A DNA stretch of 40,752 nt, taken from contig JACPDH010000090.1 of assembly GCA_016184115.1 (NCBI GenBank), positions 1-40,752 on the forward strand. Direction: 5' to 3'. Source of the stretch: Acidobacteriota bacterium. GTDB taxonomy: Bacteria > Acidobacteriota > Thermoanaerobaculia > Gp7-AA8. This document shows positions 855-7,593 of the stretch, one piece after another. Under the pieces are notes generated by a model that saw nothing but the letters and a program-made list of their open reading frames with translations, was not told the DNA's origin and searched no databases. A program made the translations under genes and the position numbers. How positions within the stretch are numbered: the first letter of the stretch is position 1; each line of letters begins with the position of its first letter.

Positions 855-2714
855 CTAACGCCGGTTCCCCACAATCGTCCGAAGGAGCCTGAGGCGCTGG
901 TCGATCTCCTCGGGGCTCATCGACGCGTACTTCGTCGGGAGGAGCCTTCGGCTCGACGATTCGAACACCGCGAGCATCTCCATGAACTCGAGCATCTCGG
1001 CATCGCGGCTCGGGAAGTAGTCGATTGCGGCGGCCTTGAAATGCTCCGGCGTGACCGCAGCATCTCCGCCGGCTTCGCGTGCAGCGTCGTCATTCGCCAG
1101 CAAAATCACAGCCTCAACGTCGGCATTGCTGTAGCCGACGAGCTTCGCGCCGAATTCCTCACGAATCGCGGCAAAGTCGACCTCCGTTTTGATCCGGTTC
1201 TTGCGAACGAGCGCCTTCGCCACATTCTCCACTTCTTCCGGAGTCTGCGAGTAAAGGAATGGGATCTTCCGGTCGAGTCTCCCCGCCCGTTTGAGATCGA
1301 CGTCGAGCTTGTCGGGGCGGTTCGTCATGACGACGAAGAGGATGCGCCCGCGGTTCGACGTGTCTGACATGAATTCCTTGATGCGCGCGATGACACGCGA
1401 GGAGGTTCCGCCATCGCCGTCGCCATCGGTATTGCCGAACGCTCGATCGCCCTCGTCGATGATCACGACGACCTGACCGATCGCCTTGATCACGTTCAGG
1501 ATCTTTTCGAGGTTTCCCTCGGTGGCGCCGACCCATTTCGAACGGAAGTTCTTCAGCTTGATCGTGGTTAGGCCGCACTCCTTCGCGAATGCCTCCGCGA
1601 CGAAGGTTTTTCCGGTGCCCATCGGCCCGGTGAAGAGGAGCCCCATCGGAACACGCGCCGCCCGGCCGTCGCGGATGTTCTGCGCGATGACCAGAAGATC
1701 CTTCTTCACCTCATCCATGCCACCTACGACATCGAAGCCGTGCGCCGGCTCGAGAATCTCGATGAGCCCAAAGCACTCGCGCTCCATGATCTCGCGCTTG
1801 CGCCGCGCGATGAGGCGATCGGCTTCCTGGCGCGCGCGGACGGCCGGGTCTGGCGCCGACGAAGAAGGCTCTCCAGCTCCCGGTGCGATCAGCCTGCGGA
1901 TCTCGTCATTGTTCATTCCCGCCGTCAGCGCCGCGAGCTTTTTCGCTCGCTCCGCAGCGTCGGGGGTGCCGCCGAGAATTCCGGCGATGAATGCTTCACG
2001 CTCAGCGTTGTCCTGAAGCGATGCGGGAGGCGGCGTTAGGATCGAAGCGATCTGCGTGCTCTTGAGCCCCGCGGTGATCTCCGCGTAACGGTCAGCGTCG
2101 GCGGCAGGAAGCTTCGGATCGACAATGTGCGCAACGGCGCGACGCGTCTCCCGGTCGGGCATCGGCACATCGACTACGGCGACGCGAGGGTTCGACACGA
2201 GCTTCGTCGACAACTCGGTCAGATTCTCCGCGATCACGATGATGACGTTGTCTCCCTTCTCGATCTCGGGAAGCGCCGACCAACGGTGCAACGTCACGGC
2301 TGCGGCGCGATCGGCATCGGTCATGAAGCTCGGATCCCCGGCGGGCGCGACCGATTCGGCGTATTCGATGATCACCCCGACCTTACTCGCCTGCTGGAGA
2401 AGCCTTTCGAGTGCGGCGAGCGCCTTCTCCTTTCCCGAGGCGAGGATCAGATCCTCTAGGTTCTTCGCCTGCGAGCCCCCTTTCGAGAACTTGACCCCGG
2501 TCGCCACGTTGTAGACCGCGAGCACGTCTTTCGATTCCCGAAGCAGCTCCTCGGTGAGGAACGAGGTGATCGTGTGCAGCCTTCCCTCGTGAAGCACCAC
2601 GTCGTAGACGTTTCCATGAAGAACGAACATCGACGATTCGCCGCGGAGATAGCGGCGACGAAGGTCTTCGGCCCACTGCGGGAGGATTCGCGGTTGTGAC
2701 ATCGTGTGAGGCAT
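855..2714 (-). CDS. Tandem AAA+ ATPase, degenerate first module plus active classic-clade second module
   Basis: The protein has 619 residues. The C-terminal module carries Walker A GPMGTGKT (363-370), a pore-loop-like SKWVG (392-396), Walker [10 protein letters not shown] (415-423), a sensor-1 region ending in TN (464-465) and an arginine-finger-like RAGRLDR (476-482). These are hallmarks of classic AAA proteins (FtsH, p97, Vps4). Residues 28-228 appear to be a second, degenerate AAA module: a beta-strand VGVIIEYAE sits where Walker B would be, and the NVIIVIAEN...PMPDRETR stretch parallels sensor 1 and the lid of the second module, but there is no P-loop. Residues 275-312 are a charged linker. 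The likely role is an ATP-driven remodeler of a protein assembly. The start is ATG 2714, three bases after the previous stop; ATG 2702 is an alternative. Its substrate is inferred from context to be the neighbouring PspA-like protein. Confidence 0.88.
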
Positions 2715-2717
2715 GGC

Positions 2718-3623
2718 CTAGATCTCCATCGCCGCGAGCATCTTCTCCGTGTCGCGCGTCGACTCCTGAATCGCTTCCACCCCGGTGAGCAGTTCATCGA
2801 GCTGGCCGCTCAGTTCGCCCGGCGAATGCATCGTCACGATCTGATCGGCGATCAGCTTGAATGAGTTCTCGATCAGATCGAGCTGGCCGCGCGCCGTACC
2901 GAGGTACTCGCGAATCTCGCGGATCTTGTCGAGGCGCTTGAGGATGATCGCGAAGTTCTTCTTCGCGATCTCGGTGTCGGCCTCACCCGCTTTGCCGGTG
3001 CGCATTCGTGTCTCCCAGCGTTGACGGTCGCGCTCGAGCTCGCGCAGGTCGACGGACTCGAGGTACTGCTCATAGCGGGTGCTTCGAATTGCCATCTCGA
3101 TGAACGAATCGACGAGGCGCGACGTCTTCACGAGCTCGCTCTTGAGAAGCTCGGAGCCGAACGACGGATTCTGTTCCGCCAGTTTGTGGATCCGCTGACG
3201 GTTCTCGACGAGTGCCGCGACCCGCTGCTGCAGGTAAGGCGGAAGGTCGCGCGTCTTTTCTTCGCGCTCCTGCGCCTCGATCGCCTCGCGGAGTTTCTCG
3301 AAACGCGGATCCCAAAGTATCTTTCGGAGCTTCTTCGAATCGGGAGCGTAGAGAAGCCAGAGCGCCTCCGCTCCGATCGCAGCGATCGCGAGCACCGGGT
3401 TGAGCGTGATTCCGGCTGCGACGAGCGCGCCACTGAACAGCGAAAGATTGTACGGATTCCCGAAGGCGAACTTCAGGTACGGTCGTTTCGAGAGAATCGA
3501 ATCGCGGATGAGGTTCTTCCCGGCCGAGATTGCCTCGTCCACGACCTTCTGCTGCGCTCCGGCCGCAGGAGTCTTCGTCCCGGACAGCGTTCGGCGAGGC
3601 GCAGGCTTTTCGATCGTTCCCAT
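2718..3623 (-). CDS. Membrane-anchored coiled-coil protein of the PspA-AAA+ cluster, family unknown
   Basis: The protein has 301 residues. The N-terminal 55 residues are basic and polar. A hydrophobic stretch at about 60-93 (LSLFSGALVAAGITLNPVLA onward) is long enough for one membrane-spanning helix or a tight hairpin. The remaining 200 residues are highly charged and helical, with probable coiled coils (around 110-150 and 175-300). I do not recognise a named domain. It lies between the PspA gene (55 bases upstream, separated by a strong hairpin) and the AAA+ gene (3 bases downstream). An adaptor that brings the ATPase or the PspA polymer to the membrane is a reasonable inference, with no direct proof. 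Confidence 0.8.
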   Translation of the reverse strand: MGTIEKPAPRRTLSGTKTPAAGAQQKVVDEAISAGKNLIRDSILSKRPYLKFAFGNPYNLSLFSGALVAAGITLNPVLAIAAIGAEALWLLYAPDSKKLRKILWDPRFEKLREAIEAQEREEKTRDLPPYLQQRVAALVENRQRIHKLAEQNPSFGSELLKSELVKTSRLVDSFIEMAIRSTRYEQYLESVDLRELERDRQRWETRMRTGKAGEADTEIAKKNFAIILKRLDKIREIREYLGTARGQLDLIENSFKLIADQIVTMHSPGELSGQLDELLTGVEAIQESTRDTEKMLAAMEI

Positions 3624-3636
3624 CGGGACGTCTCAA

Positions 3637-3671
3637 CGAAGGCTGGGGGCGTAGGGAGCCCCCAACCTTCG
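3637..3671 (-). promoter_or_regulatory. Intercistronic hairpin just after the pspA stop
   Basis: A 14-bp inverted repeat, CGAAGG...CCTTCG, surrounds a GC-rich stem with a 7-nt loop. The only imperfect position is C/A in the plus-strand reading, which becomes a G-U wobble in minus-strand RNA, so the fold favours the minus transcript. It begins 8 bases after the PspA stop and ends 14 bases before the next start, and no T-run follows. It looks more like an mRNA-stabilising, processing or partial-attenuation element than a full terminator. Confidence 0.6.
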
Positions 3672-3678
3672 AAACGGC

Positions 3679-4383
3679 TTACATCGTCTTCTGGCCCTGC
3701 GCCGCCTGCTGCGCCGCCTTCTTCGCCTTCAGCTCTTCGAGCTGCTTGCGCGCCTGGACGTCGCCAACCTGACTGCGAAGCCCGGCAAGCCGCGCGTCGA
3801 GCGACGACTCGGAAAGCTCCTTGCCGAGATTCGCTTCGGCAATCGTCGTCTTGATGTGCGAGCGGACATTGTCGAGAGCCTTCACTTCCTCGTCGACCGA
3901 GAGGCCGTCGAGCTGTTCCTGGATCTTGATGCGCGCCTGCGCGGAGTGCATCTTCGCGAGCATCGTGTCGCGCTCGGCCTTGAGCTTCTTGATCTCACCT
4001 TGCACGCCGATGAGCGACGACTTCGCGGAGTCGGCGTCGGACGATGCCTGCTTGAGATCGCTGTCGAGGTCGGAAACCTCCTGCGTCAGCGCGTTCTTCT
4101 TCTGGATGAGGATCACCGCCAGATCGTCCTGCCCCGTCTCGACCGCCGTAGCGAGCTCGGCGTCGACCTGCTCGAGCTCCCTGGTCGCGCGCTTGTAGCG
4201 CTCGTCGAGCTCTTCGCGGCGGCGGATGATCGCGGCGGTTGCCGTCTTCAGCTTCGTGTATTTCTCGACCATCGAGTTGATCGCGTTCTCATACGCGATC
4301 TCCGGATGGTCTTTTTCGATGTCGGCGATCCAGAGCGAGAGGAAGCCTCTCCAGAGATTACCGAGTCGCGTAAACATGCCCAT
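3679..4383 (-). CDS. pspA: PspA/IM30 (Vipp1) family protein, bacterial ESCRT-III-like
   Basis: The 234 residues match the PspA/IM30 plan. An amphipathic N-terminal helix rich in Trp and Phe ([19 protein letters not shown]) is followed by [16 protein letters not shown], equivalent to the helix-1 start of E. coli PspA. A long helical hairpin with alternating charge runs over 40-150, and shorter helices continue to the end ([10 protein letters not shown]). Family members polymerise on membranes, share the ESCRT-III fold and protect or remodel the inner membrane under stress. No PspF, PspB or PspC is visible in the window; the partners here are a helical protein upstream and a membrane coiled-coil protein and AAA+ ATPase downstream. 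The SD-like AGGAAGGG lies 7 bases before ATG 4383; ATG 4377 (MFTRL) is also possible. Confidence 0.87.
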
Positions 4384-4440
4384 GTTCGTGCCCTTCCTGT
4401 GAGTGTTCCCGATGTCGCGATGCGCTCAATGGCGACGCGA

Positions 4441-5112
4441 TCACTGTTTCGGTTGTGGTTCGTGCAGGCGCGGCGATTCGCGAACGACCTTGGCCACAGT
4501 CTCCTGCCCGAAGAACTCGAGAATCTGCTGCACCTCGAGCTTCTTGTCATTGCAGTGCTTGATGACCGACTGCTGCTCTTCGACTTTCCGATGAATGAGA
4601 GCGCGGATCTCCGCGATCTTCTGCTCGTAGTCGCGAACCAGCGTCTCCGACTCCTCGCTCATCTTAGCCGTCTCGGAAGCGCCGTTACGGATGTATCCCT
4701 CGAGAGCCTGAATCTGCTCGACGCCCGTCTCGATGATCTTGTCGATCTCGACGCCGAATGCCTTCAGGGAGGCGCCAACGATCTGCCGCTTCACGGTCGG
4801 ATCGGTGCCGGCTGGAAGACTCTTCAACAGTTCCACCGACTTCCCGATCCGTTCCCGATCGGCCATACCGATGCCCGCGGCATCGAAGACGGCGTCGAAA
4901 TCGACGACGCCGCCCGGTGCAGCGGGCACGTCCTTCTCAAACACCTGCGGCATTTCGGCGAGCGCCGAGTCGGCATGTGCGACCGTCGGCGGCTCGACTG
5001 CAGCCGCGTCGACCGTCGGGCTTCCGAAATCGCCTGCCGATTCCTGGTTCGCCCCATCCTGCACGACGAACCAGCCGAGAACCGTCTTCCCCCAGCCTTT
5101 TCCTTCGCTCAT
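4441..5112 (-). CDS. Helical protein heading the PspA-AAA+ cluster, unknown family
   Basis: The protein has 223 residues and I recognise no domain. A short aromatic and amphipathic N-terminus (KGWGKTVLGWFVVQ, residues 5-18) could touch a membrane, as the PspA N-terminus does. It is followed by a low-complexity Ala/Pro/Glu linker (20-65), a small folded-looking part (67-115) and a long coiled coil (about 118-205) ending in a polar tail. There is no signal peptide, so it is probably cytoplasmic or peripheral. Its stop is 57 bases before the PspA start and it is first in the four-gene run. Structural partner or regulator of the PspA-like polymer is the best guess. Confidence 0.75.
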   Translation of the reverse strand: MSEGKGWGKTVLGWFVVQDGANQESAGDFGSPTVDAAAVEPPTVAHADSALAEMPQVFEKDVPAAPGGVVDFDAVFDAAGIGMADRERIGKSVELLKSLPAGTDPTVKRQIVGASLKAFGVEIDKIIETGVEQIQALEGYIRNGASETAKMSEESETLVRDYEQKIAEIRALIHRKVEEQQSVIKHCNDKKLEVQQILEFFGQETVAKVVRESPRLHEPQPKQ

Positions 5113-5190: not shown

Positions 5191-7593
5191 TCATTTCGTC
5201 ACCGAAAACTCGTGACGCGAGGGCGTGCCGGCGCAAGCCGCGGGCGCGTCGCAGGCATCGATTTCGAGCACATACGGCCTGTCGGACGGTGGCAGCGCCG
5301 GATAGCGCACCGACCGATCGCGTGTCCACTCCGACCACGCGCTGTCGACTCCCGCGAGGCGCGTGCGGAATCGAAGCGCCTCCTCGTTCCTGTACGAAAG
5401 CGCCGCGAAGTCCACCGTCACTGACGCGTGTCCCTTTCCCGTGGAGCGAACGTCGACCCGCTCGATCGTGATGGGTGGCCTGCTTCCACCCGCTTCGAGC
5501 GCGAGCACATCGACGATCGACACGCCGCGCGGCGTCGCAACCCAGAGCTTTCCCTCGAAGTCGAAGGCGAGCGCACCCGGACCCCAGACTTCGCCGTCGA
5601 CGAGACCTTCGCGCCGGGTGATGCGTGCACGACGCCCCAGCGTCGCGGCGTCCACTTCCACGATGGCACTGCCGTGACTGAACCAGACGTCCCCTCGGGG
5701 CGAGACCGCGATCGAAGCGGCGATCGAAGAGCCAAGCCCCTCGCTCCCCTCGAACAGCTGTGGCGTGATCGCATCGCCATCCTGCCGAACGTCAAAGACG
5801 GCGACTCCGCCCGCAGCGCCCGCCCATACCTGATTCCCGCCCACGGCAATCGCCCGGAAGTGATCTGACAGAGCACCGCGCGAACGATCCCACACCGTGC
5901 GGAGCATTGCCGCGCTCGACGATTCGCCCGACAGGCGCGATCGGAGCCGGCTGACGGAGAGTGGAGCCTCGGATCGCTGCACGCCACGCTGCGGCGTCGC
6001 AACCCAGAGATGCCCACGCGAGTCGATCGCGACGTCGTACGCCGCACCGCGCCCCGCGTCGGCGTCGACGTCAATCCACGTCCCGTCGACGAGGCAACGC
6101 ACTCCCGACGAACCGGCAGTGAATACGAGCTGCTCATGTCCCTCGCCATTCGAAAGGTCGAGGACGCGGCACGAATAGATGCGTTCCGGCTCGAGAGCGA
6201 TGAAACTCACGATCGTTGCCCGACTACCGAGTATCTCGACCGATTGCGTCGTGGTTAGGCCGCCCGGTTCCGCCGCGCCTTCCGGCACGATCGCGTTGAG
6301 CCCTGCCGCGGTTCCGACCCAGATCCGCCCCGCACGATCGCGCGAGAGGCTATAGACCGAGCCACTGAGCAGACCTTCCTTCTGCGAGATCACCGAGGTC
6401 CGACCGGCGCGATCGCGCACCGCGACGCCCGCGGCCGTCGCAATCCAGCTCCACGAGCCAGGGCCATCCGCGGAAGCCGGGGGAACGACGCCAAAACACT
6501 CCGGAGCGGGAAGCGCAGGAGCGTGGTCGTTTCGTCTCGATGCAGTCAACGTCGTGAAGGCGCGATAGTCCGAGCGGAGTCTCGAGAGCCCTCCGTTTTG
6601 CGCGAACCAGAGATTCCCTTCGCGATCGGCCGCGATCGACCAGACGGTGTTGCTCAGGAATCCGTCACCGCGATTGAACCGCGTTCGATTCGCAGGAGAC
6701 GAGGCGTCGAGCCGGAGGACGCCCGCACCGAGGCTCGCGACCCAGAGATCGTTGCCGACAGCGGTGATAGCGGGGATCCGCTCGTTCAATTCGTTCGTCA
6801 CGAGCACGAATGGCTTTCCCTCTCCAGCGCTACGCCAGAGCTCGCCGCTGACGGTCCCTGCCCACAGCTCGCCAGGGACGCGCTCGTAGAGCGCCGAGAC
6901 GAGCGTCGCACTGAGCTGCGGGTCGCGCCATGTCGTCATGCGCTCGCTCCCCGCCTCACCGCGTCCGAACGTCCCATCCTCGAATGCGATCCAGAGTGCG
7001 CCCGACGGTCCCGCCGCGAGCATCGATGCGCCGCCGTCGTCCTCCGAGCTCAGAATCGCGCGAGCGAGACTTCCGCCGCTGGCGAACTTGTAGGTCTCCA
7101 CGCCGTTCCTCGTCGCGATGGCGAGCCGGCCGTCGCTCAGCTGCGCCATCTGATTCCGACCCATGCGCTCGCCCGGGAGACTGGTTGCGCCGAACCGCGT
7201 GGTAAAGCGAACGCGCGCTCCAGGTGCACCAGCCCCGAGCGGCGATTCGCTCGCGAACACGCCCGTCTCGCTGGTCACCCAGAGCCTGCCGCTCGCATCC
7301 TCGATGAAATCGCGGACTGTTAGGTCGCCGAGCCCGTCTGCCACGGACCAGTTCGTCACCGACTGCCCGTCGTAGCGCCCGAGCCCCGTGCTGAAGAACC
7401 CCATCCAGATGTATCCGAGACGGTCTTGTGCGACTTTCTGGACACTCGACGACGGAAGGCGTGCGGGCCCCGCTTCAGGCGTGAAGTGGGTGAACGGCAG
7501 CTCCGCCGACGCGACGGAAGCAACCGTCAACAACACCGCAACGAACGTCAATGACAACACGGCACGCTCTGCAACGCGACAAAGTGGGGGCAT
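5191..7593 (-). CDS. Secreted two-component-type beta-propeller protein with Y_Y_Y domain, no kinase
   Basis: The 800 residues start with a signal peptide (cleavage near VASVASA, about 30). Repeated propeller motifs follow across 40-690, for example QDRLGYIWMGFFSTGLGRYD, DREGNLWFAQNGGLSRL, DRAGRIWVGTAAGLNAI and DSRGHLWVATPQRG, the pattern of Reg_prop ligand-binding propellers. Residues 700-798 resemble a Y_Y_Y domain (RFRTRLAGVDSAWSEWT and following). In hybrid two-component sensors this is followed by a membrane helix and kinase; here the protein stops right after it (FSVTK). It is therefore a stand-alone periplasmic sensor, or the remnant of a split sensor. SD AGGAG precedes ATG 7593. It sits 78 bases upstream of the PspA cluster on the same strand. 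Confidence 0.85.
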   Translation of the reverse strand: MPPLCRVAERAVLSLTFVAVLLTVASVASAELPFTHFTPEAGPARLPSSSVQKVAQDRLGYIWMGFFSTGLGRYDGQSVTNWSVADGLGDLTVRDFIEDASGRLWVTSETGVFASESPLGAGAPGARVRFTTRFGATSLPGERMGRNQMAQLSDGRLAIATRNGVETYKFASGGSLARAILSSEDDGGASMLAAGPSGALWIAFEDGTFGRGEAGSERMTTWRDPQLSATLVSALYERVPGELWAGTVSGELWRSAGEGKPFVLVTNELNERIPAITAVGNDLWVASLGAGVLRLDASSPANRTRFNRGDGFLSNTVWSIAADREGNLWFAQNGGLSRLRSDYRAFTTLTASRRNDHAPALPAPECFGVVPPASADGPGSWSWIATAAGVAVRDRAGRTSVISQKEGLLSGSVYSLSRDRAGRIWVGTAAGLNAIVPEGAAEPGGLTTTQSVEILGSRATIVSFIALEPERIYSCRVLDLSNGEGHEQLVFTAGSSGVRCLVDGTWIDVDADAGRGAAYDVAIDSRGHLWVATPQRGVQRSEAPLSVSRLRSRLSGESSSAAMLRTVWDRSRGALSDHFRAIAVGGNQVWAGAAGGVAVFDVRQDGDAITPQLFEGSEGLGSSIAASIAVSPRGDVWFSHGSAIVEVDAATLGRRARITRREGLVDGEVWGPGALAFDFEGKLWVATPRGVSIVDVLALEAGGSRPPITIERVDVRSTGKGHASVTVDFAALSYRNEEALRFRTRLAGVDSAWSEWTRDRSVRYPALPPSDRPYVLEIDACDAPAACAGTPSRHEFSVTK

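Follow-up and report, generated by a model that had tools for sequence, protein, structure and literature searches.

The closest described relative of the system analysed here is an operon presented by Ravi et al. (2024, mSystems, PMC11237479), which, according to main-text passages of that paper, comprises PspA, an ATPase with two AAA (ATPases associated with diverse cellular activities) domains, a transmembrane (TM) Snf7-like protein, an ATP-binding cassette (ABC) ATPase, a permease, and a PBPB/OmpA protein. These passages state that the N-terminal AAA copy of such ATPases is inactive, and propose ATP-dependent membrane remodelling comparable to that by Snf7/VPS4 of ESCRT (endosomal sorting complexes required for transport). 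Structural work (PMC11746142) still treats the disassemblase of PspA as unknown, and a survey of ESCRT systems (PMC10936438) limits Vps4-containing systems to archaea and eukaryotes and derives Vps4 from a CDC48 ancestor; no characterised PspA-AAA pair of this type was found in the searched literature. Here, we analysed contig JACPDH010000090.1 of the Acidobacteriota assembly GCA_016184115.1 (the window, i.e., the whole stretch of 40,752 nucleotides, which is one entire contig), part of a genome of 4.4 Mb with an estimated completeness of 97% (G000; G, C, L, and f numbers are our handles for genomes, contigs, loci, and families). Four genes on its minus strand at 855–5112 encode, in this order, a 223-aa helical protein (X223), a PspA/IM30-family protein, a protein with a TM hairpin and a coiled coil (TMcc), and an AAA+ ATPase. 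With a probability of roughly 0.55, we read this cluster as a membrane-remodelling module of the ESCRT-III-plus-AAA type built from PspA, in which the ATPase would most likely engage the tail of PspA and extract PspA from membrane-bound polymers.

Compared with the operon of Ravi et al., the same set of ABC ATPase, permease, and PBPB plus OmpA protein recurs, in relatives within the operon and in the window's genome at a second locus on contig C86. Where the passages name a TM Snf7-like protein, TMcc has a TM hairpin and a helical bundle in which kinship with PspA/Snf7 is unrecognisable by profile. X223 and the PspA tail motif described below are absent from these passages, although some of this may be mentioned in the supplement (Text S2.2). 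The first-pass annotation of the locus, made from the sequence alone, had known of no characterised example of the gene set; except for X223, the operon type and its proposed Vps4-like role had already been published. Within the literature that was searched, and with the same proviso for Text S2.2, four elements appear to be new: the membership of X223, the splitting of the locus, the constant companionship of TMcc with PspA in our sample, and the tail motif.

Eukaryotic and archaeal ESCRT-III with Vps4 (CdvB–CdvC) resemble the cluster in that a polymer of the ESCRT-III superfamily is encoded with a classic AAA+ protein and carries a short motif at its C-terminal end. Unlike Vps4, the ATPase has neither an MIT domain nor Vps4_C (Pfam, E ≤ 1) and is nearest to CDC48/p97, and the PspA motif is far shorter than the MIT-interacting motif (MIM) helix of ESCRT-III. 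Among solved structures, CDC48/p97 is closest to the C-terminal AAA domain and shares the tandem AAA-like pair, but the first domain here lacks Walker A and no CDC48 N-domain was matched by Pfam. PspA is shared with E. coli PspFABC, from which the window's genome differs by having no PspC (no PF04024 match; PspB and PspF were not searched for), the first-pass annotation having described the cluster as lacking the classical psp partners; the AAA+ protein is of the classic clade, whereas PspF is a sigma-54 activator.

The AAA+ ATPase and the tail of PspA

The AAA+ ATPase (855–2714, minus strand, 619 aa) matches PF00004 above the family cut-off (E = 3e-27, residues 359–486). Its C-terminal classic AAA domain (residues ~325–590) is intact and has Walker A and Walker B as well as sensor 1 and an arginine-finger region. 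Orthologues hardly vary in Walker A, the pore loop (KWVG), DE, sensor 1, or the arginine-finger region, and therefore this domain should be an active motor; its nearest PDB sequences are CDC48/p97 D2 domains (E about 1e-41). The N-terminal domain (residues ~1–275) has no Walker A motif, and its profile retrieved almost exclusively AAA proteins from the PDB, in the register of the post-sensor region (behind the second region of homology, post-SRH) and the lid and at weak E-values (≥ 0.13). From these two observations, and nothing else, it is likely a degenerate AAA copy; comparison of the two domains with hhalign gave no similarity. One orthologue (L069, G015:C7:28154-29998) is interrupted by a single in-frame TGA.

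PspA (3679–4383, minus strand, 234 aa) matches PF04012 above the family cut-off (E = 6e-19, residues 2–227), aligns to Vipp1/PspA structures over residues 1–221 (E = 2e-11), and is the single PspA of the genome. The pairing of a PspA with a classic-clade AAA+ protein, as originally annotated, is supported, and the AAA+ protein is intact. Across a phylum sample of 149 Acidobacteriota genomes (all genome counts uncorrected for shared descent), PspA was found in 41, the N-terminal domain of the ATPase in 26, TMcc in 21, and X223 in six genomes. PspA accompanied the ATPase in 21 of the 26 genomes encoding the latter (Fisher p = 4e-10), at a distance of less than 10 kb in 14 of these 21, which span 10 families. 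The complete set of X223, PspA, TMcc, and AAA was found again in dozens of contigs, which excludes a chance arrangement and upholds the suspected linkage.

In the alignment of PspA proteins, the C-terminus reads K[TS][ML]-COOH or K[ETS][LMI]GP behind a variable linker; in the window, K232-T233-M234 (codons at 3682–3690, minus strand) form the candidate AAA-recognition tail. Column entropy amounts to 0.17–0.54 bits for the last three residues compared to 1.1–2.5 bits in the preceding linker, and shuffled tails match the motif in 0.05–0.4%. The search pattern [KR][ETSD][MLI](GP|end) was fixed before the remaining PspA genes were fetched. Of the 19 complete PspAs from Acidobacteriota genomes that encode the ATPase, 18 carry the motif, as against none of 20 AAA-less genomes; among the genes fetched after fixing the pattern, the ratio was 5/5 versus 0/17, and a second, unlinked PspA of the AAA-encoding genome G011, likewise newly fetched, was negative (0/1). 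All 40 intact operon-linked PspAs carry the motif, the single miss being a frameshifted fragment (L018). Ten Myxococcota genomes with the ATPase have one motif-bearing PspA each (two in G201), and none of the 15 scored paralogues was positive. Motif-bearing PspA is retained where the ATPase is not adjacent, including in Myxococcota genomes. Families f21, f41, and f65 possess ATPase and motif with no PBP/OmpA transporter detected, and the seven genomes of family f31 encode PspA and TMcc with neither ATPase nor motif. The motif hence follows the ATPase. It was also considered as a signal for TMcc, for X223, and for the transporter, and each of these readings was rejected because the distribution across genomes does not fit.

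The Vps4-like disassemblase suggested in the first-pass annotation thereby gains support and a more specific form, with the PspA tail as the putative recognition site. Because of the AAA-linked tail, how bacteria dismantle their PspA coats becomes a directly testable question, made a simple experiment by a concrete candidate of three residues, and the PspA/AAA pair would bear on whether remodelling by a polymer plus AAA arose more than once.

Two side observations concern PspA paralogues: both PspAs of the Myxococcota genome G201 (L158 and L166) have motif-like ends, GRTL and KKTI, and an AAA-less genome contains three PspA paralogues in tandem (L130, G164:C200:16124-18307).

The wider operon and its companion genes

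Searches with the AAA protein yielded 60 loci, whose titles name Acidobacteriota or Myxococcota in nearly all cases, and the gene set is kept across these two phyla. In the majority of those that are complete, seven genes follow each other in the order X223-PspA-PBP/OmpA-permease-ABC ATPase-TMcc-AAA, the middle trio encoding an NMT1-like binding protein that has OmpA as its fusion partner, followed by a BPD permease and an ABC ATPase. In the window's genome, this trio is located on another contig (C86:1170-4667, locus L096), where the binding protein is 74% identical to that of a relative. The four-gene cluster of the first-pass annotation is therefore a seven-gene system divided over two loci; that three transporter genes usually belong inside it is not visible from the window. 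Further variants are a three-gene PspA-TMcc-AAA locus (G181, G069), PspA-TMcc without AAA (f31), an AAA-first order (G118), and entirely dispersed genes (G149). The combination of an NMT1-like binding protein and a peptidoglycan-binding OmpA domain in one protein, as found on C86 of G000, is an unusual importer design.

The trio lies between PspA and TMcc-AAA in most relatives, and a PBP/OmpA homologue was detected in 15 genomes, of which 14 encode the N-terminal domain of the ATPase. This arrangement would also fit an AAA+ protein that, as a chaperone, assists the assembly or the quality control of a complex of ABC importer and TMcc, with PspA protecting the membrane in the meantime and not being an AAA substrate. 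Yet six genomes (G069, G108, G119, G149, G173, and G181) combine the ATPase and a motif-bearing PspA with no detected transporter, the window's genome keeps PspA with the ATPase while the trio sits away from the operon, and the tail motif would be left unexplained; an importer chaperone is consequently an unlikely function, albeit the best placed of the alternatives.

TMcc (2718–3623, minus strand, 301 aa) has a hydrophobic hairpin at residues ~57–92 followed by a long helical bundle or coiled coil, as judged from hydropathy, alignment, and an AlphaFold2 (AF2) model (predicted local distance difference test, pLDDT, 78; predicted template modelling score, pTM, 0.63). No Pfam family was matched by TMcc or by X223. 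Foldseek gave no significant match for TMcc, and VIA-align returned designed helical bundles and BAR-like rows with a best Z of 12.4, a level to be expected of helical proteins. A relationship of TMcc to PspA/Snf7 was considered and is unsupported, the profile-profile probability with PspA being 2%. TMcc was always accompanied by PspA (21/21 genomes, p = 1.4e-14) and also co-occurred with the ATPase (Fisher p = 3.7e-8). It is a partner of PspA first, because the two are paired in AAA-less genomes as well, e.g., in family f31. The earlier suggestion of TMcc as a membrane adaptor belonging to this system is plausible as to the membrane anchor, but the pairing with PspA extends beyond genomes with the ATPase.

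X223 (4441–5112, minus strand, 223 aa), an open reading frame (ORF) whose orthologue alignment has invariant columns, is predicted to be soluble and helical, with a conserved hydrophobic and aromatic N-terminus (WGxTVLGWFVV), a disordered linker, a small helical domain (72–118), and a long helix (123–201). Its AF2 model reached a pLDDT of 82 and a pTM of 0.56. No PDB-sequence match and no significant Foldseek match were obtained, and VIA-align Z-scores (≤ 6.1) did not exceed the expectation for helical proteins. The aromatic N-terminus and the helical nature had been noted at first pass. In the phylum sample, X223 was missing from most genomes with the motif and from most AAA genomes, and is a lineage-restricted accessory. 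As a candidate PspA/Snf7 relative, X223 was rejected, since profile comparison detected no relation.

TMcc usually lies directly upstream of the ATPase, from which it is separated by a few bases, the window being an example, and together with their co-occurrence this could point to TMcc or X223 as the protein acted upon, the PspA tail then being a docking site that places the ATPase at the PspA coat and not an unfolding handle. Its occurrence with PspA in AAA-less genomes, however, argues that TMcc has no need of the ATPase, and most AAA genomes have no X223 to act upon, which makes such a division of roles somewhat less probable still than the chaperone function.

Proposed mechanism and its weighing

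In the membrane-remodelling module proposed here, PspA would assemble on the inner face of the cytoplasmic membrane via its amphipathic N-terminal helix, as is expected from its family. TMcc, with its TM hairpin as anchor and its cytoplasmic helical bundle, may hold or nucleate PspA at the membrane, a step proposed because TMcc was never found without PspA in the sample. The PspA tail, i.e., the variable linker and K[TS]M or K[ETS][LMI]GP, would project from the polymer and be captured by the ring of the ATPase. The N-terminal domain, likely a degenerate AAA copy, would probably serve as a docking layer, and the C-terminal domain, whose ATP site is intact and whose pore loop is aromatic, would pull on and unfold the subunits, thereby recycling the polymer. 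X223 is probably bound to PspA or to the membrane through its aromatic N-terminus. In most relatives, the module is coupled to the ABC importer with its fusion of a binding protein and a peptidoglycan-binding OmpA domain. The more specific proposition of a dedicated bacterial ESCRT-III disassembly machine, derived from a CDC48-like two-domain AAA+ protein instead of Vps4, reading K[TS][ML]-COOH or K[ETS][LMI]GP of PspA as an independently evolved counterpart of the MIM–MIT interaction and coupled to a peptidoglycan-anchored ABC importer, is put forward tentatively, at somewhat less than even odds.

Several observations weigh against the remodelling module. On a PspA tree built without the tails, the correlation of motif and ATPase amounts to about two changes, and independent pairs are too few for significance; because of this, the correlation is suggestive and no proof, and shared ancestry can account for most of it. 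In the AAA-encoding genome G122, where the system is dispersed over three contigs, PspA (L118, G122:C15:3562-4221) has no motif. Five genomes with the ATPase have no detected PspA, two of the five being incomplete, and by its domains (no MIT, no Vps4_C) the ATPase is no Vps4. That certain PspA clades keep the motif as a relic of their lineage, or that a different cell factor such as a protease or PDZ-like protein reads it, with the AAA linkage reflecting only co-inheritance of an envelope operon, would agree with the few changes on the tree and is nevertheless improbable, as the last three residues are near invariant next to a varying linker, the f31 PspAs are without motif and without AAA despite grouping (at weak support) with those of f21, f41, and f65, and motif-bearing PspA is retained in genomes with a non-adjacent ATPase.

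Boundaries of the cluster

The four ORFs, their strand, and the short spacing (3 to 57 bases) of the first-pass annotation were all confirmed, the intergenic gaps being 57, 55, and 3 bases. Signals of sigma-70 promoters or terminators at the locus did not exceed chance level. Upstream of X223, at a distance of 78 bases, an 800-aa beta-propeller protein of the two-component-regulator type (Reg_prop repeats) is encoded at 5191–7593 on the minus strand. This gene and the downstream gene for a 246-aa membrane protein were considered as operon members and rejected, since neither is conserved in relatives, and the cluster is therefore limited to the four genes at 855–5112, with its ends as originally drawn.

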